A DNA stretch of 29,712 bases. It comes from a bacterium. Lineage in GTDB: Bacteria > CLD3 > SB21. Numbering within the stretch: position 1 is the stretch's first letter; every line of letters starts with the position of its first letter. Under the pieces are notes generated by a model. The model did no database searches. It was not told the origin of the DNA and saw only the letters and a list, made by a program, of their open reading frames with translations. The position numbers and the translations under genes were made by a program. Where the stretch lies: assembly GCA_013360215.1 (NCBI GenBank), contig JABWCP010000034.1, forward strand, positions 1 through 29,712, written 5' to 3'. Shown piece by piece: positions 20,583-29,712 of this stretch.

Positions 20583-21551
20583 ATGCGATTTATTCCAAGC
20601 GACACACTGCGTGAGTTGATCACTATGCCTGAAGCGATAACGGCAATGCAATCGGCATTTTCTGCATTATCCGATGGGTCGGCTGTTGTGCCGCTTCGAA
20701 CGACCCTTGACTTTCCCGGTTCCGACGCCCGTGCGCTGATCATGCCGGCTTATCATTCATCATCTCGGTACTTCACGACCAAAATAGTGACGGTATGTCC
20801 GACCAATGCCGCGCGCCATCTTCCGCTCATCCACGGTACACTGATCGTTACGGACGGATCCACAGGAAAAACACTGGCACTGATGGATGCAGAGTGGATT
20901 ACGGCTTTGCGGACTGGTGCGGCTTCCGGACTGGCCACGGAATGGATGGCTCTTCCCGATGCGCATACATTAGGAGTTTTCGGGACAGGTGCGCAGGCCT
21001 ACGAACAGGTGCGTGGCGTCATGAGTGTACGGAAATTAACACGGATTATTATATTTGGCCGCGATCCCCAAAAAACAACTACGTTTTGTAAAACTGTTTC
21101 AAATCAATTTGCAATTCCTTGTTTTCCCGCTCAAGCGCCGCAAGAGGTTTCCCAATGTGATATCCTCTGCTGCGCAACCAATGCGCATAACCCGGTTTTT
21201 GAAGATAAGTATCTCACGCACGGTACGCACATCAATGGTATCGGCGCATTCAAACCCGCAATGCGTGAAATACCATCAGCGACTATAGCACGCGCTCGCA
21301 TTATCGTAGATCAACGCGCATCCGCATGGCGTGAAGCCGGCGACTTGATCCTCGCTCAAAAAGATGGAGTAGTCGCTGAAGATTGCATTGCCGGCGAAAT
21401 CGGCGAAGTCGTCACGCATAAAACTTCCGGACGTATATCCCGAGAACAAATCACCATCTTCAAGTCCGTAGGTAATGCGATTCAGGATAATGTAATTGCA
21501 TCCATGGCTTATGAACGTGCCCTCAAAGCGGGAATAGGAACGGAGATTTGA
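20583..21551 (+). CDS. 1-pyrroline-2-carboxylate reductase (ornithine cyclodeaminase/mu-crystallin family)
   Basis: The 322-residue protein shows the ornithine cyclodeaminase/mu-crystallin fold: Lys67 in 'FTTKIVTV', Arg110 in 'TALRTGAASGLAT', the nucleotide loop 'GVFGTGAQA' (Gly134-Ala139) and 'GRDPQK'. The position that carries the catalytic Asp in true ornithine cyclodeaminases is part of 'GIGAFKPAMREI' here and lacks that Asp. This agrees with NAD(P)H-dependent imine reduction rather than deamination. It would reduce the pyrroline-2-carboxylate made by the preceding dehydratase to L-proline. The start is 5 bp after the dehydratase stop. It is the last gene of the operon. No convincing terminator follows, and AT-rich cassette DNA begins within about 80 bp. 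Confidence 0.88.
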   Translation: MRFIPSDTLRELITMPEAITAMQSAFSALSDGSAVVPLRTTLDFPGSDARALIMPAYHSSSRYFTTKIVTVCPTNAARHLPLIHGTLIVTDGSTGKTLALMDAEWITALRTGAASGLATEWMALPDAHTLGVFGTGAQAYEQVRGVMSVRKLTRIIIFGRDPQKTTTFCKTVSNQFAIPCFPAQAPQEVSQCDILCCATNAHNPVFEDKYLTHGTHINGIGAFKPAMREIPSATIARARIIVDQRASAWREAGDLILAQKDGVVAEDCIAGEIGEVVTHKTSGRISREQITIFKSVGNAIQDNVIASMAYERALKAGIGTEI

Positions 21552-21628
21552 ACCTACGATTAGTATTAGAAAACAACTTGTTCATATTCGAAATATATAT
21601 TTGTTTTGACGTGCCGTAGACCATGACC

Positions 21629-22363
21629 TCATAATTTCCACATGTAACCAACGCTGATGCTAAAAACATGACCTGTATGACCTATACTTAATGGGTTATT
21701 CACGTACGAATAGACCAATTCGGCGAAACCTTTATTCTTATTTATATTTTCGCTCTAGCCTATATGAAAAGACGGGAAGTTATTAGGATTAGAACCTTTC
21801 CCACCTTCACCATAATCATGATCTATATTAAATAAGTTATATTTAATTATTCCATACATAACACTTGTTTGTGAGCTGCGCTTCGAGATAATTAATCCGG
21901 GGGAAATACCCGAGGCAAGTTTATCCGTTCGTTCAGAATAAAATAAAAAATAATTAGTATAGTTCAGCAAAAGAGACATTTGCATTTTCGAATTATCAGG
22001 AGTAACTCTATATTTTAACATTCCTCTTAAGCCAAAATCACAACTTTTTATATTCGCACCCAACACAACTTTAGAGAGTAACACCGGTGCGGCATACCCA
22101 CTCCACAAACTTGCCCCTACATTTAGGCGGTCACTTATACCATACGATAACCTAGGTTCAAGTATTGCGGGTGTAATCGCTTTTACAAAATGATCTCTTG
22201 GTTTTTTTGACCATTCTTCTGGACCACCTGAAGCGCTAGTCAGTACACTGAATTTCCCACGATTTAATGTTTCCGCATCTTGGTGTTCAATTATACTTAT
22301 ACCGCCACAACTAATTTGAGGTAAGGAAAAAATAATTATACAGCATTTAACAATTTTATTCAT
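21629..22363 (-). pseudogene. Outer-membrane beta-barrel-like cassette gene broken by an in-frame TAG
   Basis: The frame from ATG 22361-22363 codes for 202 residues and stops at TAG 21755-21757. Reading on in the same frame gives 41 more codons to TGA at 21629-21631. They end in an alternating aromatic/aliphatic strand ('HVFSISVGYMWKL') like the last strand of an outer-membrane barrel. The upstream part has a signal-peptide-like start with a Cys near residue 19, 'EPRLSYGISDRLNVGASLW' and further alternating strands. I conclude that a ~243-residue barrel-type protein has been cut short by one nonsense codon. A truncated but functional protein is less likely, since the barrel would be unclosed. 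I recognise no specific family. No attC-like site follows before the hydroxyproline operon, so this is the distal end of the array. Confidence 0.65.
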
Positions 22364-22398
22364 CGTTGCCCCATTTTAATAGAATATAACCGCATGGT

Positions 22399-22589
22399 AC
22401 ATAACGGATCGCGACAATCTGCGATGGTGCGGTATAAGGTTTCGAAAATTTCAAACCACTCGTGTCTCGCGCCACGCTGTATGTGAAGTGCGAACTCGAT
22501 TTATTATTTGACATTATTAAGATTACCCTTAAAATCCCATTTTAAATATTGTACGAGCCCTGAATGAACAGATGGACCGCGAATTATTC
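22399..22589 (-). repeat. attC-like site R1 (191 bp, diverged)
   Basis: It aligns over its full length with the other repeats (edges ACATAAC ... ATTATTC, then CGCGAC, 'GCGCCACGCTGTAT', 'GAACAGATGGACCGCG'). The inner 13-bp arm is largely destroyed ('GTGCGGTATAAGG' against 'TGTCTCGCGCCAC'). It has the standard length but is one of the most diverged copies, consistent with an old, distal cassette. Confidence 0.8.
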
Positions 22590-23067
22590 GTTGGACTTAT
22601 CAGTTTTTAATAATTTTGTCCTTACGAAAATCTTGTAAGATGCTTTTCTGAAGAAAAACCCGTCACCTTTAGTGAATACACCATCGGAATAAATGGACAT
22701 TTAATGCTCCATATTCTATTTTGATAGTTTTGATTGCATATTTGGCTTCCCATATCACTGCATCACTTTTAATCGGTTGCAACATAAATAAAAAAAACTT
22801 CTTGTTTCTCTACCGCTAGAAGTGATACTTATGAAGTAGCGCCGGTATATTTATCTGTATACGTTCTAATTCCAATGTTTTCAATTGCAGTATTATCAGA
22901 TTTTGTATGGTAATAGTCAGCAGTTTCCATACTTAAAATTAGATCTGCACAAACTCGTGTACAATTTCCTCAACTGTTTGACTGATTAATAATCTATTTC
23001 CTTCTATAATCTTTAATTCAATTTGGTAGGTATTTAGCATTTCTTCTAATTTTTTTAAACGCACCAT
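22584..23067 (-). pseudogene. Decayed cassette gene (frameshifts and stops)
   Basis: No long ORF is present, but coding-like stretches follow each other on the minus strand. ATG 23067 opens a 42-codon frame ('MVRLKKLEEMLNTYQIEL', 'SQTVEEIVHEF'). After a one-base shift the frame continues 'CADLILSMETADYYHT', 'IENIGIRTYTDKYTGATS', then stop and 'VSLLAVEKQEVFFIYVATD'. Another shift gives 'MLQPIKSDAVIWEAKYAIKT', and a last one 'MSIYSDGVFTKGDGFFFRK' with a stop at 22584 inside repeat R1. The order and spacing suit one ~150-residue protein with several inactivating changes. I do not recognise the family. Stretch boundaries are approximate. Confidence 0.5.
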
Positions 23068-23143
23068 GAAATTCCCTATTTATAAACTCTATCTACATGT
23101 TTACGGGTACTTTTTTATCAGGTAGATCCCACAATTTCTTTAA

Positions 23144-23260
23144 TTAAGATTTAAAATTACCTCGCGCACAGGAAATAACTAAAAATAGAAATGTAAAAAA
23201 AATATTTTTCAAAAGACTTTCAATTTTTAAACGTTCTGTGACGTTTGCATAACTTTTCAT
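23144..23260 (-). pseudogene. Lipoprotein signal-peptide stub, probably the 5' end of the decayed gene
   Basis: ATG 23260 opens a 38-codon frame with a hydrophobic helix and a lipobox-like VISC ('FFTFLFLVISCARGNFKS'), then TAA at 23144-23146. The same frame continues for 16 codons ('LKKLWDLPDKKVPVNM') to another stop. It sits directly upstream of the frameshifted stretch beginning at 23067. I therefore read it as the former N-terminus of that lipoprotein; a real 38-residue peptide is possible but less likely. Confidence 0.4.
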
Positions 23261-23403
23261 AGTATTAGATGCGCCATTGTTCGAGGTATCTTTATCTTTA
23301 AACTTTCTACTCTTGGTACTCGCATCTATCTGAACCGAGATATGTCATCAAATATCGCAGTCTGGGGAAACAAATATAGAGCATTTCGATTTCATTGCCG
23401 TTA
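23261..23403. other. Non-coding gap, possibly a badly decayed repeat
   Basis: No ORF, RNA gene or clear repeat is visible. The words 'GCGCCATTGTTCGAGGTATCT' and 'TCTACTC' around 23272-23310 weakly recall the left arm of the attC-like repeat, and a site would be expected here between two cassettes. The match is too poor to annotate as a site. Confidence 0.25.
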
Positions 23404-24021
23404 TCATGGGGTTATGATCGGCGTATCCGCACTGAATAAAAGTCCAATAGAAATTGACCCTGACCATAAATTTTTTAATTGATTTGCCGAAACTGAGAAA
23501 ACAAGAGAAGCCTTGGAAGTCAGTTGTTTAGCGCTTGAAATACCCAAAAAAACACCAGTTTGTGGTTTAGCGCTACGTTCTCCACTCAAAATCATCACAA
23601 CCCCATATCCAAGTTCCGGCGCCAAACGAAAATCATTTCCTTCAGTAATATCTACGGACATACCACCGCTAAAGTTAATTGATTGAGGCATAGCAAATTT
23701 TGCACGTTTCCATTTCAAAAAAGCAAAGTCAACAAAAGGATGTAGGCGCCCTGAGGCAGAATACATTTCAATTTCTGGGGAAAAATAACTAACTTCTTTT
23801 TCATCAGATTTCAATGTTCCACCGACAATGCTGAATTCGATACCTTCTTTGAAGCTAATCGATAAATATCCTGCTTTTGACGAGGAATTTTTACTTCCAT
23901 ACGCATGAACACCGCCCATACTCATGACAGAACCATCACAATGCGAAACTAGCCGCCTTTGAGCGCTAGAAGGGGTGATTAAGAACTGAAGCAGAGCCGT
24001 TAAAAACAATAGTTTTTTCAT
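23404..24021 (-). CDS. Exported beta-rich protein of unknown function (cassette gene)
   Basis: The frame is open from ATG 24030, but ATG 24021 fits better: a GGA ribosome-binding-like triplet lies 9 nt before it and the signal peptide MKKLLFLTALLQ begins at once. The 205-residue product has a cleavage site near PSSAQR, no lipobox, and then alternating hydrophobic/polar strands ('AGYLSISFKEGIEFSIVGGTL', 'GMSVDITEGNDFRLAPELGYGVVMIL', 'SLVFSVSANQL', 'WSGSISIGLLF'). This suggests a small outer-membrane beta-barrel. I recognise no family. It is intact although its neighbours on both sides are decayed. The damaged repeat R2 lies just upstream of it. Confidence 0.7.
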   Translation of the reverse strand: MKKLLFLTALLQFLITPSSAQRRLVSHCDGSVMSMGGVHAYGSKNSSSKAGYLSISFKEGIEFSIVGGTLKSDEKEVSYFSPEIEMYSASGRLHPFVDFAFLKWKRAKFAMPQSINFSGGMSVDITEGNDFRLAPELGYGVVMILSGERSAKPQTGVFLGISSAKQLTSKASLVFSVSANQLKNLWSGSISIGLLFSADTPIITP

Positions 24022-24069
24022 ATTCAACATTCCAAAGGTTACTAAAATGAGGCATCACTCAAAACATCA

Positions 24070-24240
24070 TGCTACAAATGTTGTACCAGTAAACAAGTAA
24101 ATCCAATCGTCTAATTCTACTTGCTCAACGCGCCACAATGTATTCGAACTGTAAACTCAAATTATTATTTAAAAAACAATCACTTGAAAAATCTTATTTT
24201 CTGTGTTCCGCAATCAGTGAGCAAACATCTGTGGTTATGC
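24070..24240 (-). repeat. attC-like site R2 (decayed left half)
   Basis: The right half is clear: 'GCGCCACAATGTATTCGAAC', an AT-rich loop, 'CAGTGAGCAAACATCTGTGG' and the core GTTATGC at 24234-24240. It resembles R10 most. The left half (24070-24120) has lost the GTGGCGCGAGG arm and no longer shows a TAAC edge, so the left boundary is approximate. The site is unlikely to be functional. Confidence 0.65.
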
Positions 24241-24432
24241 TATTCAATGCTGCTTTGATTTAGTATCCAAACAATAATCCACATTCAACTGCCTCAACAA
24301 ATCTGTTTTTATGATTCCTTAATGATATCAATATTTTATGTTTTTTTATCATTAACATTGACTTTTTCTATCTTTCCATAATTCCAAGCCCAAAAGTACT
24401 CCCAATATTGGCATTTGATTACCATTAAACGT
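24241..24432 (-). pseudogene. Remnant of a short cassette
   Basis: This lies between repeats R2 and R3. On the minus strand a 29-codon frame ('MVIKCQYWEYFWAWNYGK') and, in another frame, 'NHKNRFVEAVECGLLFGY' followed by a stop are the only coding-like traces. No complete ORF remains. I regard it as a decayed cassette of about 190 bp, without an identifiable product. Confidence 0.3.
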
Positions 24433-24553
24433 ATATAACTGTAGCGGCATGCTGCAAGTAACTATTATTTGTTAAAACTTTAACCATTCCTTGTAAAAAC
24501 CTTACTTTCAATACTTCACGAGGAGCATGCGAACAGATGGGTGCGGGTTAGAG
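24433..24553 (-). repeat. attC-like site R3, 121 bp, lacking one hairpin arm
   Basis: The edges ATATAAC (24433-24439) and GTTAGAG (24547-24553) are present, as is the GCATGC arm ('CGGCATGCTGC' ... 'GAGGAGCATGCGAACAG'). The ~70 bp holding the GTGGCGC arm is missing. It looks like an internal deletion of a standard 191-bp copy. The result has the size of a conventional attC site. Confidence 0.75.
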
Positions 24554-24577
24554 ACATTACAGATTTATTTATTCATC

Positions 24578-24925
24578 TCATTTTTTTGCAGCTGTTGCAA
24601 TATTCAATCCTGGGGCTAAATTAGCACCTATCACAGCTCGTTGCGGCCAATGATTTGGATCTGAACCAATTCATTGTTTTCATAGATTATAAAAAACGCC
24701 ACGGCTTTCTATACGACTCAATATAATTTGTAATGATAGAATATGAGTTTTGTGCGAACCGGTCTCTTCCAATGGCTTTTCAAGTTGATATAAACACGCC
24801 TCAACTTCTTTGTCAAAATCTGGAATTTTAGCTACTGTCGATACAACCCATATAATATTGTCATGCGAAACCATTCGCGAGCGACCAGGCACACTTGCGT
24901 TCCATCTTTTAATTTTATTTTCCAT
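24578..24925 (-). pseudogene. RidA/YjgF-family gene with two in-frame TGA codons
   Basis: ATG 24925 opens 81 codons to TGA at 24680-24682, with RidA-like features ('RSRMVSHDNIIWVVSTVA', 'EVEACLYQLEKPLEETGSHKTHILSLQIILSRIES'). The same frame then continues through a second TGA three codons later into 'IGSDPNHWPQRAVIGANLA' and 'TAAKK', ending at TGA 24578-24580. The continuation matches the conserved RidA C-terminus, where Trp-x4-Pro-x-Arg precedes the trimer contact. The total of 115 residues is the family's normal length. At least the second TGA stands where family members often have Trp. TGG is the Trp codon elsewhere in the window and TGA ends intact genes, so these are nonsense mutations rather than a changed code. 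Intact homologues hydrolyse reactive enamines/imines. Confidence 0.75.
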
Positions 24926-24990
24926 TCAATCCTGTCGACAGCAATATATTACTCTATCAATTTAATCAGCTTTTGTTAATTAGTATTGAA

Positions 24991-25180
24991 GCTAAAAGTC
25001 TTCGGTATCCACGGTTCTGTAGCGGAGGTATTTAAAAACTTCAAATCTCTCGCGCCTCACGCCACAGTATCGGCACAATGCGGGTTACAATTATTTGCTA
25101 AAATTCTAATCAGTATCTATAAAAATCTTATTATCCATATTCTACGAGCATCGTGCGAACGGATCACTAGAAGATTAGAC
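24991..25180 (-). repeat. attC-like site R4
   Basis: Left edge GCTAAAA is degenerate; right edge ATTAGAC is at 25174-25180. The outer stem still pairs (CTTC ... ATCC with GGATCACTAGAAG). The inner arms are 'CTGTAGCGGAGG' with 'CCTCACGCCACAG' and 'GCACAATGC' with 'GCATCGTGC'. The R' core next to the RidA pseudogene has lost the conserved C of TAAC. Confidence 0.85.
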
Positions 25181-25190
25181 GCACATCAAT

Positions 25191-25757
25191 TTATTTCAAT
25201 TTCAATCTCAAACCAATTCCTAGTGCAACATGGTTATATTTTATGTTCATCTTCTCATCCTCAAACTTCCATCGCGCTTTATGCCGTTGATAACCAATAT
25301 CAAAATTTAAAAAAAAGAAGTTTAAACCCGTAGAAATCCCAAAATATGAACCATCTTTGATCGTTCCTCCCCCTTCATAAGAAACATTATTAGATATTAA
25401 TGAAACCCCATATTGAAAGCCAAAATACACGTGGTTCATGTGGTCCGATAACTTAATTTGCAGGGCACCATAAAATGGTCTTACGCTAAATTTTCCTCCC
25501 CATCTTTTAGTCGCCATTGTGGTACTTTTGCTCATACCGCCACCTATAATAAAATATTTGTTTACCGGAAAGAGCATTTCACCTGAAAATTGTATTGAAT
25601 GTACTTTCTCAGTTAATGGCTCTTTTAAATCCCAAAAGTTTGTTGACTCTGATATATGTTTTCCATCAATATCTTTTGAGATTCTTAAAAAGATTTCTTG
25701 AGCATTGATTGAAGATGCTAAAGATGCGATTAAAAGTGTCGAGATTACTCTATTCAT
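25191..25757 (-). CDS. Small outer-membrane beta-barrel-like protein (cassette gene)
   Basis: The 188-residue product has a Sec signal peptide (cleavage near SSINAQ). Amphipathic beta-strands separated by short turns follow ('SIQFSGEMLFPVNKYFIIGGGM', 'FSVRPFYGALQIKLSDHMNHVYFGFQYGVSL', 'SYFGISTGLNFFFLNFDIGYQ'), ending in 'HVALGIGLRLKLK'. This pattern suits an eight-stranded barrel of the OmpA/OmpW-like size class, although the last residue is Lys rather than aromatic. I recognise no family. Its stop codon at 25191-25193 overlaps a cassette-end inverted repeat, TTAGACGCACATCAATTT (25175-25192), whose perfect complement stands at 25783-25800 next to R5. The cassette is therefore complete and well preserved. 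Confidence 0.78.
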   Translation of the reverse strand: MNRVISTLLIASLASSINAQEIFLRISKDIDGKHISESTNFWDLKEPLTEKVHSIQFSGEMLFPVNKYFIIGGGMSKSTTMATKRWGGKFSVRPFYGALQIKLSDHMNHVYFGFQYGVSLISNNVSYEGGGTIKDGSYFGISTGLNFFFLNFDIGYQRHKARWKFEDEKMNIKYNHVALGIGLRLKLK

Positions 25758-25793
25758 TCTTAGTTTTAAATATAAACATGCAAATTGATGTGC

Positions 25794-25960
25794 GTCTAAC
25801 GTTGCCTGTATCTGCGGTGCTGCGGCGTGGGGTATCTGAAAATTTTCGACTATTAGCCCCTCGCACCGCGATATGTGCCGAGACGCGTGCCCAGCTATCG
25901 TATCCGGGAGAATCTAATATTACACGTATCGAGATCGCTGCCGCTATCATGGAGTTAGGC
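25794..25960 (-). repeat. attC-like site R5 (167 bp, perfect core edges)
   Basis: Edges are GTCTAAC (25794-25800) and GTTAGGC (25954-25960), both exact RYYYAAC/GTTRRRY matches. The arm is 'GCGGCGTGGGG' with 'CCCCTCGCACCGCG'. The inner section differs from the other copies ('GTGCCGAGACGCGTGCCC') and is ~24 bp shorter, so this is a separate subfamily. Confidence 0.85.
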
Positions 25961-26417
25961 GTCTGCACAGCGCTTTTATTTTAAAAATATCACATAAATT
26001 AAACTTTGATTCATCAAAATCATTGTACTTATACTCTGCAAAAACAGCAATTTTTTGTTTGCCAACTAAAATACTATCAATATATAATGTATTATTTGTA
26101 ATACTAAACTCTACTCCTGAATCAAATGTATTTTCTTCGCTATTCCAACTCCTTAATAAACCATTTTCAACTTTATACGAGGTCTCCCCTTCATAATCAA
26201 TACAATCACCCTCATCATCATAACTCCATTCTTTTTGAGTATCGGCTGTAAACTGCATGTAAAATTCGCCCTCGTAAAGAGACTTGTTTTGCTTGTATAA
26301 CTTCCATTTTGTATTTGGAATAGATGCAATGTTGTTTTCTTTATCATCACTACAGGCTTGCAAAGCACTAAAAATTATAACGATTGTTGCGAGGCTTTTG
26401 ATAAGGAACGACTTCAT
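25947..26417 (-). CDS. Lipoprotein of unknown function (cassette gene)
   Basis: The 156-residue product has a lipoprotein signal peptide with the lipobox LQAC, lipidated Cys22, then 'SDDKENN'. The mature part is acidic and beta-rich ('NTKWKLYKQNKSLYEGEFYMQF', 'CIDYEGETSYKVENGLL', 'SGVEFSITNNTLYIDSILVGKQKIAVFAEYKY'). This looks like the lipocalin-like or META-like small lipoproteins of Bacteroidetes-type genomes, but I cannot name a family. The last residues (LCRRLTP) and the TGA stop are encoded inside repeat R5, as is common when a cassette ORF runs into its attC site. Around 100 bp of non-coding DNA precede the start up to R6. Confidence 0.8.
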   Translation of the reverse strand: MKSFLIKSLATIVIIFSALQACSDDKENNIASIPNTKWKLYKQNKSLYEGEFYMQFTADTQKEWSYDDEGDCIDYEGETSYKVENGLLRSWNSEENTFDSGVEFSITNNTLYIDSILVGKQKIAVFAEYKYNDFDESKFNLCDIFKIKALCRRLTP

Positions 26418-26517
26418 ACAATCTCCTAATTTAAAACTATTTATATAGTGGAATTTCGATCATAAATACATTTGAGTATGTGTTTAGTAAATGGATTGGC
26501 GGTCAATGCTGCATGAC

Positions 26518-26708
26518 GCCTAACGGTCTCCGGTATCTGCGGTGCTGTGGCGCGAGGTATATGAAAAACTCAAACCTCTCGTACCTCGCTCCACAGTATC
26601 GGCACGATGCGAGTTACAATTATCGTTAGAAATCTAATCATTACCTACAAAAACCCTGTTTTCAATAATCTAAGAGCAGCAAGCGAACGGATGGGCCGCG
26701 TGTTATTC
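26518..26708 (-). repeat. attC-like site R6 (191 bp)
   Basis: Edges are GCCTAAC (26518-26524) and GTTATTC (26702-26708). The arm 'CTGTGGCGCGAGG' pairs with 'CCTCGCTCCACAG' except for one mismatch. The left side has the CTCCGG/GCACGATGC variant while the right side has GCAGCAAGC/GGGCCGCG, so its outer stem does not pair well and it may be a chimera. Confidence 0.9.
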
Positions 26709-26725
26709 GAAGACCCGCGTTCACT

Positions 26726-27253
26726 TTACGAATTATCTTGCCTGATCCACCAACTGCTGAGAATAGGAAGCATCACGATCTGACCCACGGCGGCCCAGAC
26801 ACCCGGTAAAAGTGCGACTTCAAAGTATTCAACAGCGTTTGACTCAGGCACATAAGTCAAGAGAGCACAGACAATAAATGCTATTCTTCCAAAGATTAGA
26901 CCCATCAATACACAAGCAAACTTATTTATGCTTGTTTTTTCTCGCATCAATCCTATTGACAATCCATATATCATAAGTTCAACCGTCATTGACGGTAAGA
27001 TACTAGGCAATGGATAACCAGAAACAATATAACTGAGTATTGGTGCAAAAATGCCTGCAATTGTTCCTGCACGCCAACCGTATACCAAGCCAGCTAAAAT
27101 GATTGGCCAATGCATCGGTAGCATTATTCTTACCGGTGCACCAATGAAATGCATTCCTATTGGCAATAGAACGGCGACCAAAACAAATATGATTTGTAGA
27201 GTGTATGCTTTCACTCCTTGCAAAGCTAAGGTCTGTGCTTCACTTGCTGACAT
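26726..27253 (-). CDS. ECF-transporter S-component-like membrane protein (cassette gene)
   Basis: The 175-residue product has about five to six hydrophobic helices: 'TLQIIFVLVAVLLPIGMHF', 'WPIILAGLVYG', 'GTIAGIFAPILSYIVSG', 'MTVELMIYGLSIGL', 'FACVLMGLIFGRIAFIVCALL' and 'LPGVWAAVGQIVMLPIL'. The size, the G-x-R-x-G loop after helix 2-3 ('YGWRAGTIAG') and the 'E-x-x-x-Y-G' pattern in the middle fit substrate-binding S components of energy-coupling factor vitamin transporters. The vitamin is not predictable. The start has AAGGA about 6 nt upstream. No T or A components are nearby, so it would have to share an ECF module encoded elsewhere. Confidence 0.72.
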   Translation of the reverse strand: MSASEAQTLALQGVKAYTLQIIFVLVAVLLPIGMHFIGAPVRIMLPMHWPIILAGLVYGWRAGTIAGIFAPILSYIVSGYPLPSILPSMTVELMIYGLSIGLMREKTSINKFACVLMGLIFGRIAFIVCALLTYVPESNAVEYFEVALLPGVWAAVGQIVMLPILSSWWIRQDNS

Positions 27254-27303
27254 GCAATCCTTTCTATCTCTTTTTAGGGATTAAATTGTGTTAAGCGGCT
27301 TTC

Positions 27304-27495
27304 GGATAACGGTCTCCGGTATCCGCGGTGCTGTGGCGCGAGGTACCTGAAAACATAAAATCTCTCGTGCCTCGCGCCACAGTATCGGCATGCTGCGAGT
27401 TACAATTATTTATTAGAAGTCTACTCATTACCTATAAAAAGCTTATTTTCAACACTCTACGAGCATCGTGCGAACGGATCACCGGATGGTTATCA
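27304..27495 (-). repeat. attC-like site R7 (192 bp)
   Basis: Edges are GGATAAC (27304-27310) and GTTATCA (27489-27495). The arm CTGTGGCGCGAGG pairs perfectly with CCTCGCGCCACAG (13 bp). The outer stem TCCGGTATCC pairs with GGATCACCGGA. The GCATGCTGC arm faces GCATCGTGC, which is not its best partner. Confidence 0.92.
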
Positions 27496-27557
27496 CCTTC
27501 ACAAGCCATTAATCCAAATAATAATATCACAAGTAGGTTGGAAAAATAGAATCTCAT
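27432..27557 (-). CDS. 41-residue mini-lipoprotein in a ~100-bp cassette
   Basis: Between repeats R7 and R8 there are only about 100 bp. An ATG at 27555-27557, preceded by AGAGAGGA at good spacing, opens 41 codons. They begin with a signal peptide and lipobox LMAC (lipidated Cys19), then 'EGDNHPVIRSHDARRV', and stop at TAG 27432-27434. The second half is encoded by the attC-like repeat R7 itself. Either this is a real minimal lipoprotein or the remnant of a lipoprotein gene reduced to its signal peptide by deletion. The intact ribosome binding site and lipobox favour expression. It is too short for most gene finders. Confidence 0.5.
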   Translation of the reverse strand: MRFYFSNLLVILLFGLMACEGDNHPVIRSHDARRVLKISFL

Positions 27558-27596
27558 AAAATCCTCTCTTAGTTTTATTAGAAATTGAGAGCTATC

Positions 27597-27788
27597 AGAT
27601 AACGGTTCGCGACTATCTGCGGTGCTGTGGCGCAGGGTACCTGAAAACTTTTACTATTAGTTCCCTGCGCCACAGTATCGGCATGCTGCGAGTAACTATT
27701 ATTTATTAAAAATCTAATCATTCTTTGTAAAAAGCCTACTTTCAATACTCTACGAGCAGCATGCGAACAGATGGGTCGCGTTTTATAT
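27597..27788 (-). repeat. attC-like site R8 (192 bp)
   Basis: Edges are AGATAAC (27597-27603) and TTTATAT (27782-27788, the G of GTTA is changed to T). The arm CTGTGGCGCAGGG pairs perfectly with CCCTGCGCCACAG, GCATGCTGC with GCAGCATGC, and CGCGACTATCTG with CAGATGGGTCGCG. It is nearly identical to R9. Confidence 0.93.
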
Positions 27789-27826
27789 GTCATTGCGCTA
27801 TATTATTTTGATCAACAATCATTTTT

Positions 27827-28261
27827 TCATTCATTTAAGAATCTAAGACGAAACACCCTTTCTCCAGTCTGCTCATGTGTCTTTTCAGCGACAAATCTGA
27901 ATCCGTACTTTGCATAGAATTTGCGTCCAACTATATTTTTTTCAAAGACTTCAACAATCAACTCATTGTGAAATTCGAGTGCTTTATCTACCAACATTTT
28001 CCCAAAATTCTTCCCAATATGAGTAGGCTGAAGAAATAGACCTCCAATTTCATTTTGAATCAGCGAAACAAATCCAACAACAACACCATCAACCTCAATT
28101 ACCCACGTTTCCACATTTGGTAGATAAAGATCACGAACATTTTTCTTTTCTTGTGCTTGAAAATCTTCAGACAAGAACGGATGAGCTAAACATTGGGCAT
28201 TTTCCCATGCAGAGAGTACCGCAGATAAATCTGATTCTCTATATTTTCGAATTGAAATCAC
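27827..28261 (-). CDS. GNAT-family N-acetyltransferase, YjaB-like (cassette gene)
   Basis: The 144-residue product is a complete GNAT domain. It starts 'ISIRKYRESDLSAVLSAWENA', has 'AHPFLSEDF' and 'VETWVIEVDGVVVGFVSLIQ', then the acetyl-CoA motif A 'GLFLQPTHIGKNFGKMLVDKAL' (Q/R-x-x-G-x-G/A pattern) and motif B 'NIVGRKFYAKYGFRF'. The order and wording follow E. coli YjaB and related small acetyltransferases. The acceptor substrate is unknown. GNAT enzymes are among the commonest cargo of integron cassettes. It is cytoplasmic and intact, with about 40 bp to R8 and about 57 bp to R9. Confidence 0.9.
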   Translation of the reverse strand: MISIRKYRESDLSAVLSAWENAQCLAHPFLSEDFQAQEKKNVRDLYLPNVETWVIEVDGVVVGFVSLIQNEIGGLFLQPTHIGKNFGKMLVDKALEFHNELIVEVFEKNIVGRKFYAKYGFRFVAEKTHEQTGERVFRLRFLNE

Positions 28262-28317
28262 TTTTCACTCCATAAATTAACAACATTACAACAATAATTT
28301 CAAAAATGGGCAATGGC

Positions 28318-28508
28318 ATATAACGGTTCGCGACTATCTGCGGTGCTGTGGCGCAGGGTATATGAAAACTTTTACTATTAGTTCCCTGCGCCACAGTATC
28401 GGCATGCTGCGAGTACAATTATTTATAAACAATTTATCCATTCCTTGTAAAAACCCTACTTTCAATACTCTACGAGCAGCATGCGAACAGATGGGTCGCG
28501 GGTTATGC
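28318..28508 (-). repeat. attC-like site R9 (191 bp, best-preserved)
   Basis: This is the clearest copy. Outer stem: 28318-28340 with 28488-28508 (CGCGACTATCTG facing CAGATGGGTCGCG). Inner arm A: 28346-28358 with 28384-28396, a perfect 13-bp stem. Inner arm B: 28402-28415 with 28466-28484 (GCATGCTGC/GCAGCATGC). The core edges are ATATAAC and GTTATGC. Confidence 0.95.
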
Positions 28509-28522
28509 GTGGTGATGCTTCA

Positions 28523-28972
28523 TTAAGCATTAAATTCAGTTAACTTCTCTTTATCATACCATATCCTATATCTTTCCGGCACTAGTAAATTAACATAAGT
28601 AACAATTGAATCGATTTGCGGTGAATAATAGTTACTTACATGTGTCTGATACTTCTTTTTTTTCTTCGTAAAAGAAAATGATAGCTGCAATCCATCTTGT
28701 ACGGAGGAATTTCTATAATTGCTAAAGAACATATTCGTATCCAAGTTACATAAATAATTTAAGTATGGTGAGTCACTAAATTTTCGGCACCACACAATTT
28801 TAGGCTTTGAATCAATTTCGCCATATGATTCGATTACTGTTACACTATTCTCAAAAATTCTATAAGTGTAACCATCGCCTGTTGAATAATCGGCATTGTA
28901 AATGGATAGATAGGTGCTTCTGTTTGCACATCCACTCATAATTACTAATACAAATATTGAAACAAACTTCAT
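28523..28972 (-). CDS. Lipoprotein of unknown function (cassette gene)
   Basis: The 149-residue product has a short lipoprotein signal peptide with lipobox MSGC (lipidated Cys15), then 'ANRSTYLSIYNADYSTGDGYTYRI'. The mature part is beta-rich with many Tyr and Ser ('ENSVTVIESYGEIDSKPKIVWCRKF', 'GLQLSFSFTKKKKKYQTHVSNYY') and ends 'PERYRIWYDKEKLTEFNA'. I recognise no family. Two cysteines in the mature part ('VWCRKF', 'NYLCNL') might form a disulfide. The start lacks a strong ribosome binding site. It lies 15 bp from R9 and 26 bp from R10, so the cassette is compact. Confidence 0.75.
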   Translation of the reverse strand: MKFVSIFVLVIMSGCANRSTYLSIYNADYSTGDGYTYRIFENSVTVIESYGEIDSKPKIVWCRKFSDSPYLNYLCNLDTNMFFSNYRNSSVQDGLQLSFSFTKKKKKYQTHVSNYYSPQIDSIVTYVNLLVPERYRIWYDKEKLTEFNA

Positions 28973-28997
28973 ACAAATTCTTTCAAAGCATCATCAC

Positions 28998-29188
28998 GCC
29001 TAACGGCACGCCATAGGCGATGTGTCGTGGCGCGAGGTATCTGAAAACTTACACCTACTCGTTCCTCGCGCCACGATATATGCGAACTGCGAGCCTAATT
29101 TATTATTTAAAAATGATACATTCACCTGTAAAAACCCTATTTTCAATACCCTGCGAGCAGTGAGTGAACGCCTGTGGCGATGTTATCT
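28998..29188 (-). repeat. attC-like site R10 (191 bp)
   Basis: Edges are GCCTAAC (28998-29004) and GTTATCT (29182-29188). Its outer stem has a different but still complementary sequence (CGCCATAGGCG facing CGCCTGTGGCG). The arm TCGTGGCGCGAGG pairs with CCTCGCGCCACGA over 13 bp, and GCGAACTGC faces GCAGTGAGTG. These are compensatory changes relative to R7-R9. It is the same subfamily as the decayed R2. Confidence 0.93.
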
Positions 29189-29202
29189 GAGGCTTGAGGC
29201 GA

Positions 29203-29673
29203 TTAATCCACAACTTTAATATCCCCATAACTAGTGTAAATCGTATTACCATGCTTAAATTTAAAAACACATCTGTATACACATCTGTATAGCCCATTCG
29301 AAATTCGATCTCCATCATCTTTATTCAAATCCCAAATGATACTATGAAACCCTTGAGACATAAACTGATCATCCATTAGGTATCTGACAATTCGTTTTGA
29401 GCTTTTAATGTACATTGTTACCTTCATTGAGCTGGCAATTTTATACCTGAATTCGATTGGACCATTGGTAGGATTCGGAAAGGCTGCAGCAACTTCAGGC
29501 GCACTAATTACTGATTCACCTTTAATTGTTACGCGCCAATCATCCTCGTCTTCAGAAATTACATCCCCTTGGCTGTCAGTTTCAGTATATCCACTAATTA
29601 CATCACTGTTGTCACATGCCAGAAGCATCAATAAGATTGTTAACGACATTGTTTTACTAAACATAATTACCAT
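29203..29673 (-). CDS. Lipoprotein with FlgD/T9SS-like C-terminal domain (cassette gene)
   Basis: The 156-residue product has a lipoprotein signal peptide (lipobox LLAC, lipidated Cys20 if ATG 29673 is used; ATG 29664 is also possible). An acidic linker follows ('SGYTETDSQGDVISEDEDDW'), then a FlgD Ig-like/secretion-sorting-like beta-sandwich: 'AAFPNPTNGPIEFRYKI', 'VTMYIKSSKRIVRYL', 'SQGFHSIIWDLNKDDGDRISNGLY'. The F-P-N-P start, W-D-x-x-x-x-D-G and S-x-G-x-Y are the usual marks. Such domains bind or sort at the cell surface. A 12-bp tandem duplication near 29268-29291 gives YRCVYRCV where homologues have a single strand. Cassette-end inverted repeats (GGCTTGAGGCG and CGCCTCAAGTCTCAG) flank the gene. 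Confidence 0.78.
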   Translation of the reverse strand: MVIMFSKTMSLTILLMLLACDNSDVISGYTETDSQGDVISEDEDDWRVTIKGESVISAPEVAAAFPNPTNGPIEFRYKIASSMKVTMYIKSSKRIVRYLMDDQFMSQGFHSIIWDLNKDDGDRISNGLYRCVYRCVFKFKHGNTIYTSYGDIKVVD

Positions 29674-29703
29674 TTAAAAAAATATTAATGCGCCTCAAGT
29701 CTC

Positions 29704-29712
29704 AGATAACGG
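29704..29712 (-). repeat. Left edge of the next attC-like site (R11, truncated by window end)
   Basis: AGATAACGG at the very end matches the left edge of R8 exactly, and the preceding bases are complementary to the sequence just after R10. The array therefore continues beyond the window. Confidence 0.7.

Follow-up and report, generated by a model that had tools for sequence, protein, structure and literature searches.

The window analysed here, a stretch of 29,712 nucleotides that comprises the entire contig C34, carries an array of one-gene cassettes that we read, with a probability of about 0.8, as part of a gene-capture platform on the chromosome that resembles an integron but has an integrase other than IntI. 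Judged by its sequence, the integrase assigned to this platform lacks the IntI-specific domain and falls outside the IntI clade, and by the defining test the platform is not an IntI integron. A system that appears to work like an integron without this defining domain suggests that a second type of gene capture has been overlooked.

The genome comprises 3.72 Mb in 56 contigs and, since the window is a whole contig, its right end represents an assembly break. The sites occupy the minus strand between positions 22399 and 29712 and separate one-gene cassettes with short ORFs on that strand. The eleven repeat copies and minus-strand ORFs described in the original prediction were confirmed: seven of the copies are full-length (190-192 nt), three are shorter or decayed, and the contig end cuts through the eleventh (Table 1). 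The genome scan proposed there was performed with a covariance model built from the seven full-length sites A, B, C, D, E, G and K, which also recovered H, F and I, all of them on contig C34, and no site copies elsewhere in the 3.72-Mb genome at E<=10. An additional copy, J, suggested at 23226-23406, was unsupported and was rejected. The attC sites of integrons usually measure about 57-141 bp, and the earlier claim of an unusually long site family thus holds for the window as well as for related genomes, in which sites of up to ~430 nt occur. The cleanest sites and cassettes are located at the right end of the array, with decay towards its left limit, a chromosomal ornithine-cyclodeaminase-like gene. 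The gene beside the array end was found elsewhere only in genome G001, so that synteny is uninformative for C34 and C41, the contig carrying the candidate integrase gene. With respect to the cargo, searches against Pfam supported the predicted GNAT protein (1.4e-10) and an ECF-transporter S component (1.2e-10), whereas the RidA assignment of an 81-aa frame received no confirmation from Pfam.

Table 1. Sites and cassettes of the array in the window.
Feature	Position	Strand	Description
Site A	28998-29188	-	191 nt, full-length
Site B	28318-28508	-	191 nt, full-length
Site C	27597-27786	-	190 nt, full-length
Site D	27304-27495	-	192 nt, full-length
Site E	26518-26708	-	191 nt, full-length
Site F	25794-25960	-	167 nt by hand; covariance model hit 25794-25919; chimeric, 5' half is a different sequence
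Site G	24991-25180	-	190 nt, full-length
Site H	24435-24553	-	truncated; covariance model hit 24388-24553
Site I	24077-24240	-	decayed; covariance model hit 24059-24245 (E 0.002)
Site K	22399-22589	-	191 nt, full-length; last recognisable site before the chromosomal gene 20583-21551
Eleventh copy, right edge (R' box, CC|GTTATCT)	29706-29712	-	cut by the contig end; first visible cassette starts here
Cassette 1	29182-29710	-	lipoprotein-like ORF 29203-29673; terminal 18 nt complementary except position 11 (A/G)
Cassette 2	28502-29004	-	ORF 28523-28972; complementary ends, position 11 A/G
Cassette 3	27780-28324	-	GNAT acetyltransferase ORF 27827-28261; end decayed through a small insertion
Remnant cassette	27489-27603	-	115 nt; ends mismatched
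Cassette	26702-27310	-	ECF-transporter S-component-like ORF 26726-27253; position 11 A/G
Cassette	25954-26524	-	ORF 25947-26417; 10 nt complementary at the ends, one-base deletion exactly at position 11
Cassette	25174-25800	-	beta-barrel-like ORF 25191-25757; 17 nt complementary at the ends, position 11 without mismatch
Distal cassette ORF	21755-22363	-	no site recognised on its 3' side

The start and the end of the cassettes in the window are complementary to each other in a manner private to each cassette, and none of 100,000 permutations was as good (permutation value without the 7-bp core, 0.0004). Such cassette-private ends are expected if each pair once formed a single site in a circle. 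The sites are strictly associated with cassette boundaries, and the proposed integron-type nature of the array is supported. Folding of site B was more stable than that of shuffled sequences on the two strands (z -5.6 and -5.0), with a weaker signal for site A (z -2.1), and both-sided changes were present in 17 of the 43 consensus pairs of the window sites.

A search for integron integrases detected no protein above the curated cut-off (TIGR02249) in this genome, and the same search yielded three related recombinases besides two XerC/D-like proteins. One of the three is encoded at C41:121-1065 and is followed after ~20 nt by GTTATCCGAAACTCTGC, a ribosome-binding-like GGAGG and an ATG; contig C41 ends ~100 nt past the GTT of this cassette start, and no C34-type site was seen on it. 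The distance from the KGxKDR patch to the HxLRH motif amounts to 64-65 residues in the candidates and in 76 of 80 relatives, whereas Xer proteins have 69-73 residues and the 15 measured IntI proteins 106 (two further IntI proteins were unmeasurable, and a fragment of 204 residues was excluded). The corresponding gap in the alignment with IntI4 covers about residues 197-247, and the catalytic columns are invariant. In a quick tree, IntI formed one side of a branch with a support of 99, and the candidates were placed outside with insert-less relatives, mostly from Bacteroidota; the G001 recombinase has a long branch and an unsure placement. For the G006 protein, structure prediction (pLDDT 86, pTM 0.71) gave a model nearest to the solved structure of IntI4 (2a3v) and then to XerA. 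IntI was over the cut-off in 37 of the 290 genomes searched.

The related genomes of the same family encode recombinases that are 51-55% identical to the C41 recombinase and are likewise located near contig ends. Downstream of the recombinase gene, one complete cassette with matching ends is visible in G006 together with an attI-like stretch and the beginning of a site, while G005 has four cassettes and G003 a cassette start; no array was recognised in the neighbouring stretch examined for the G004 copy. The copies of this genome (G000), G001 and G005 have a common neighbour gene ~4-6 kb away, which marks a settled chromosomal locus. When the repeat model of the window sites was applied to 117 relatives, it recovered only one further site, in G002, a genome without a close match to the recombinase. 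This result reflects the lineage-specific sequence of the sites, and a pattern of the left edge was more productive for detecting those of relatives. The original prediction had offered a chromosomal integron or an integrase-less cluster, and neither description fits, since IntI is missing from nine genomes and the arrays nevertheless start beside an insert-less tyrosine recombinase. It had also named, as evidence against itself, a lack of IntI along with repeats that lie beside a different recombinase or bear no relation to ORF boundaries. IntI is indeed lacking and the recombinase is a different one, but the sites are strictly bound to cassette boundaries, which argues for a parallel integron-like system rather than for a refutation.

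A common signature of the cassette ends emerged from ~90 cassettes of G003, G005 and G006, three genomes of one genus whose inner site lengths cluster at ~152, ~180 and 345-426 nt. The first and last ~17 nt of these cassettes are mutually complementary and private to each cassette. Numbered outward from the G of GTT, positions 1-10 and 12-15 showed 97-100% agreement between the start and the reverse-complemented end, in contrast to 1% at position 11, which was mismatched in 88 of 89 cassettes and in 86 of 89 cases combined an A at the start with a G in the reverse-complemented end. Among candidates from Bacteroidota, which were picked on positions 1-10 only and kept when chained, the agreement was 3% at position 11 and 76-84% at positions 12-14, compared with the random rate of 26% at position 11 in upstream control pairs. 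A strict count of the signature gave 92 pairs downstream of 34 of the 79 insert-less recombinases (251 kb), mostly from Bacteroidota. The controls consisted of upstream, shuffled and opposite-orientation sequence and yielded 2 pairs in 582 kb, 1.7 pairs and 3 pairs, respectively; a reverse-complement control is unsuitable because inverted pairs read alike on either strand. No signature pairs were present at XerC/D loci (74 kb) or at IntI loci (239 kb, with few arrays visible). The signature was not found at the remaining 45 of the 79 loci, often because the contig ends. In draft genomes, contig breaks lie just downstream of the recombinase far more often than upstream, which is one sign of mobility: of 51 loci with long upstream DNA, 34 have the break less than 3 kb downstream, and the reverse situation occurred in 0 of 15.

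These data bear on the possibility that the window belongs to a chromosomal integron of the ordinary kind, with intI lost or hidden in an assembly gap and the C41 recombinase as a bystander. The assembly break at the right end of the window and the attC-like GTT/AAC edges of the sites would agree with this explanation, as would the finding that class 1 cassettes also pair beyond the core, over 12-13 bp, which leaves only the position-11 mismatch and the asymmetry of the bulge as distinctive features. However, no IntI was detected at E<=1e-50 in nine genomes of the family or class (G000-G008), most of them at least 90% complete, and arrays directly adjoin an insert-less recombinase in several genomes of the same family and in Bacteroidota. 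Moreover, position 11 is matched in those class 1 cassettes whose pairing reaches past the core (aadA variants, aac(6')-Ib, blaGES and aadB), and the mismatch is absent from the IntI loci examined; this contrast is based on about six class 1 cassettes from plasmids, as the contigs of genomic IntI loci end near intI. We therefore regard an ordinary integron as improbable. A dead, CALIN-like cluster that gained its cassettes in the past and has lost mobility appears just as unlikely: although C34 itself is without an integrase and the left half of its array is decayed, with the degenerate sites H and I and mismatched cassette ends, the right half has kept matched ends, the genome possesses an intact recombinase with an adjoining cassette start, and a living array likewise decays away from its capture end. 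Dispersed intergenic repeats of the MITE or REP type, unrelated to a recombinase, would account for sites with strong local hairpins but are highly improbable in view of the private complementarity of the cassette ends, the one-strand, one-ORF layout (the main ORF is on the cassette strand in 72 cassettes and on the opposite strand in 3), the enrichment strictly downstream of the recombinase and the restriction of all copies in this genome to cassette boundaries.

The architecture of the sites is consistent with the preferred reading of an integron-like platform with a non-IntI integrase. The sites form an attC-like imperfect palindrome of R'', L'', L' and R' boxes with an AAC/GTT core, in which, by eye, the R''-L'' spacer has 1-2 nt and the L'-R' spacer ~5 nt, whereas the class 1 controls have equal spacers. 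The sites of genus g4 contain, again by eye, an extra base within the L stem, and the 8-nt stem search often lands on the stem part past this base. DNA folding of reconstituted circular sites revealed a more stable bottom strand in 51 of 51 cases, as expected because an A.C pair in one strand corresponds to a G.T pair in the other. Additionally, many loci contain, before the first cassette, a palindrome such as ACGCAATTGCGTATA that is followed by 7-8 nt and then GTT and represents a candidate attI-like site.

Under the preferred reading, a short insert-less tyrosine recombinase of an IntI/XerA-like branch probably captures circular one-gene cassettes at the palindromic attI-like site just past its own gene and probably also excises cassettes from the array. 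Recombination would probably use the cassette site in a folded, single-stranded form, most likely that of the bottom strand, in which the cassette ends pair to a private stem of ~17 bp whose position 11 is obligatorily non-Watson-Crick (A.C in the top and G.T in the bottom strand), followed inward by an asymmetric bulge of 1-2/5 nt and an inner stem, to which this lineage adds a two-armed head. The recombinase would presumably catalyse the exchange at G|TT, and position 11 may direct the choice of the strand. In this genome, the integrase would be the protein encoded at C41:121-1065 with its adjoining cassette start, and the window is likely the partly decayed distal part of the same array; C41 and C34 are separate contigs, and we infer their join. 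The sequences themselves show the architecture, the signatures of sites and cassette ends, the co-location in relatives and one natural breakpoint, and the mechanism is deduced from this anatomy. It is also reasonably probable that a second class of integrons exists in Bacteroidota and several other phyla, with integrases devoid of the IntI domain and folded single-stranded sites that would be recognised by a private outer stem, its fixed position-11 mismatch replacing the contacts of the IntI insert.

The proposed system shares with integrons the array of same-strand one-gene cassettes, imperfect-palindrome sites with a GTT/AAC core, complementary cassette ends, a candidate attI-like site by the integrase gene, little sharing of cassettes among related genomes and IntI4 as the nearest solved structure. 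It differs in the missing insert and the position of the integrase outside the IntI clade, in the obligatory mismatch of the outer stem, in the unequal spacers that are roughly equal in integrons, in site lengths of ~120 nt (Bacteroidota) and 150 to ~430 nt (this lineage), and in an integrase gene that is oriented in the same way as the cassettes. The C41 recombinase scored 225.7 bits, above the cut-off of 220, against the XerA or 'site-specific tyrosine recombinase/integron integrase' family NF040815, with which it shares the absence of the insert. Archaeal XerA is a chromosome-dimer resolvase; in contrast, this genome has separate XerC/D-like genes, and the relatives of the C41 gene adjoin cassette arrays.

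The IntI-specific domain has been described as defining integrons and as necessary (PMC9668308, PMC9024848), and Messier and Roy (2001), as cited in PMC9668308, reported that integron recombination needs the insert; the need cited there counts against the reading of an insert-less integrase. According to the relevant part of Smyshlyaev et al. 2021 (PMC8138268), conservation of the insertion is incomplete in an integron-like subgroup of tyrosine recombinases, which leaves room for insert-less members, but the insertion is essential for integron function, and that part mentions no arrays beside insert-less members. IntegronFinder searches for the IntI insert (PMC9668308, PMC9024848), and complete integrons were very rare in Bacteroidetes according to IntegronFinder 2.0 (PMC9024848). 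No description of arrays beside insert-less recombinases was found in the literature searched, which does not prove novelty, as preprints and most subscription journals were outside its scope. Integrons are defined by this insert, which is also used to explain how folded single-stranded sites recombine. Should cassette arrays be run by recombinases without it, that explanation would be incomplete, the system would escape current tools and Bacteroidota would contain a large pool of cassettes not yet read; the fixed mismatch would provide a directly testable handle on strand choice.

Signature-bearing arrays are located behind insert-less recombinases in Flavobacterium, Winogradskyella, Spirosoma, Bacteroidales and others, and outside Bacteroidota in the genomes G334 and G094; G094 carries IntI as well. 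No clear signature array was present at the plasmid recombinases of Flagellimonas and Arenibacter or on the Chryseobacterium oryzae plasmid. Among the signs of mobility, few cassettes are common to G003, G005 and G006, the three genomes of one genus. In addition, G003 holds two copies of one cassette that are 97% identical and differ in their neighbours upstream; the identity of the two copies begins at GTT, giving the breakpoint C|GTT in one natural case. Flavobacterium sedimenticola possesses 14 chained cassettes with inner sites of 112-120 nt (~118), the first cassette lying 137 nt past the stop codon. On a complete Chryseobacterium plasmid, the recombinase gene is followed by same-strand cassettes, with an IS110-family element and a group II intron located at boundaries between cassettes and sites.

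On the Chryseobacterium sp. SNU WT5 plasmid (L239), whose array is associated with an insert-less tyrosine recombinase, i.e. one lacking the IntI-specific domain, two mobile elements lie at cassette/site boundaries: one of the IS110 family and one a group II intron. IS1111/IS110 relatives target attC sites, as do group IIC introns. G094, a genome outside Bacteroidota, has genuine IntI genes alongside insert-less recombinases, the latter with an array bearing the signature of complementary private cassette ends mismatched at position 11 (contigs C55 and C202; C243 and C304).

Features of the plasmid array and of the window
Feature	Location	Strand	Position in array
IS110-family element	L239, 24068-25069	opposite to cassettes	cassette/site boundary
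Group II intron	L239, 26491-28233	opposite to cassettes	cassette/site boundary
Second match to same group II intron family	L239, 33123-33294
Site F	window, 25794-25960

Site F shares its 3' half with the neighbouring sites and has a 5' half unrelated to theirs, as though it had arisen by recombination between two families of sites. By eye, an 81-aa ORF of the window (24611-24925) resembles the beginning of a RidA-like gene disrupted by a frameshift; the intact part yielded no Pfam match.

The arrays of three genomes of one genus (G003, G005 and G006; L199-L218, L064) contain several ORF-less cassettes of approximately 180-190 nt that recur at 73-88% identity, possibly representing a non-coding or parasitic cassette, and most of these are followed by long sites (345-426 nt). 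Short palindromes such as CCTATCGTACGATAGG are densely arrayed between genes near the cassette cluster of the relative G002 (C76, L035, 5590-5950), and GGGTTCCCGCTTTCGCGGGAACGACATGC-rich repeats form the end of contig C10 in the source genome (L018, 12418-12731).
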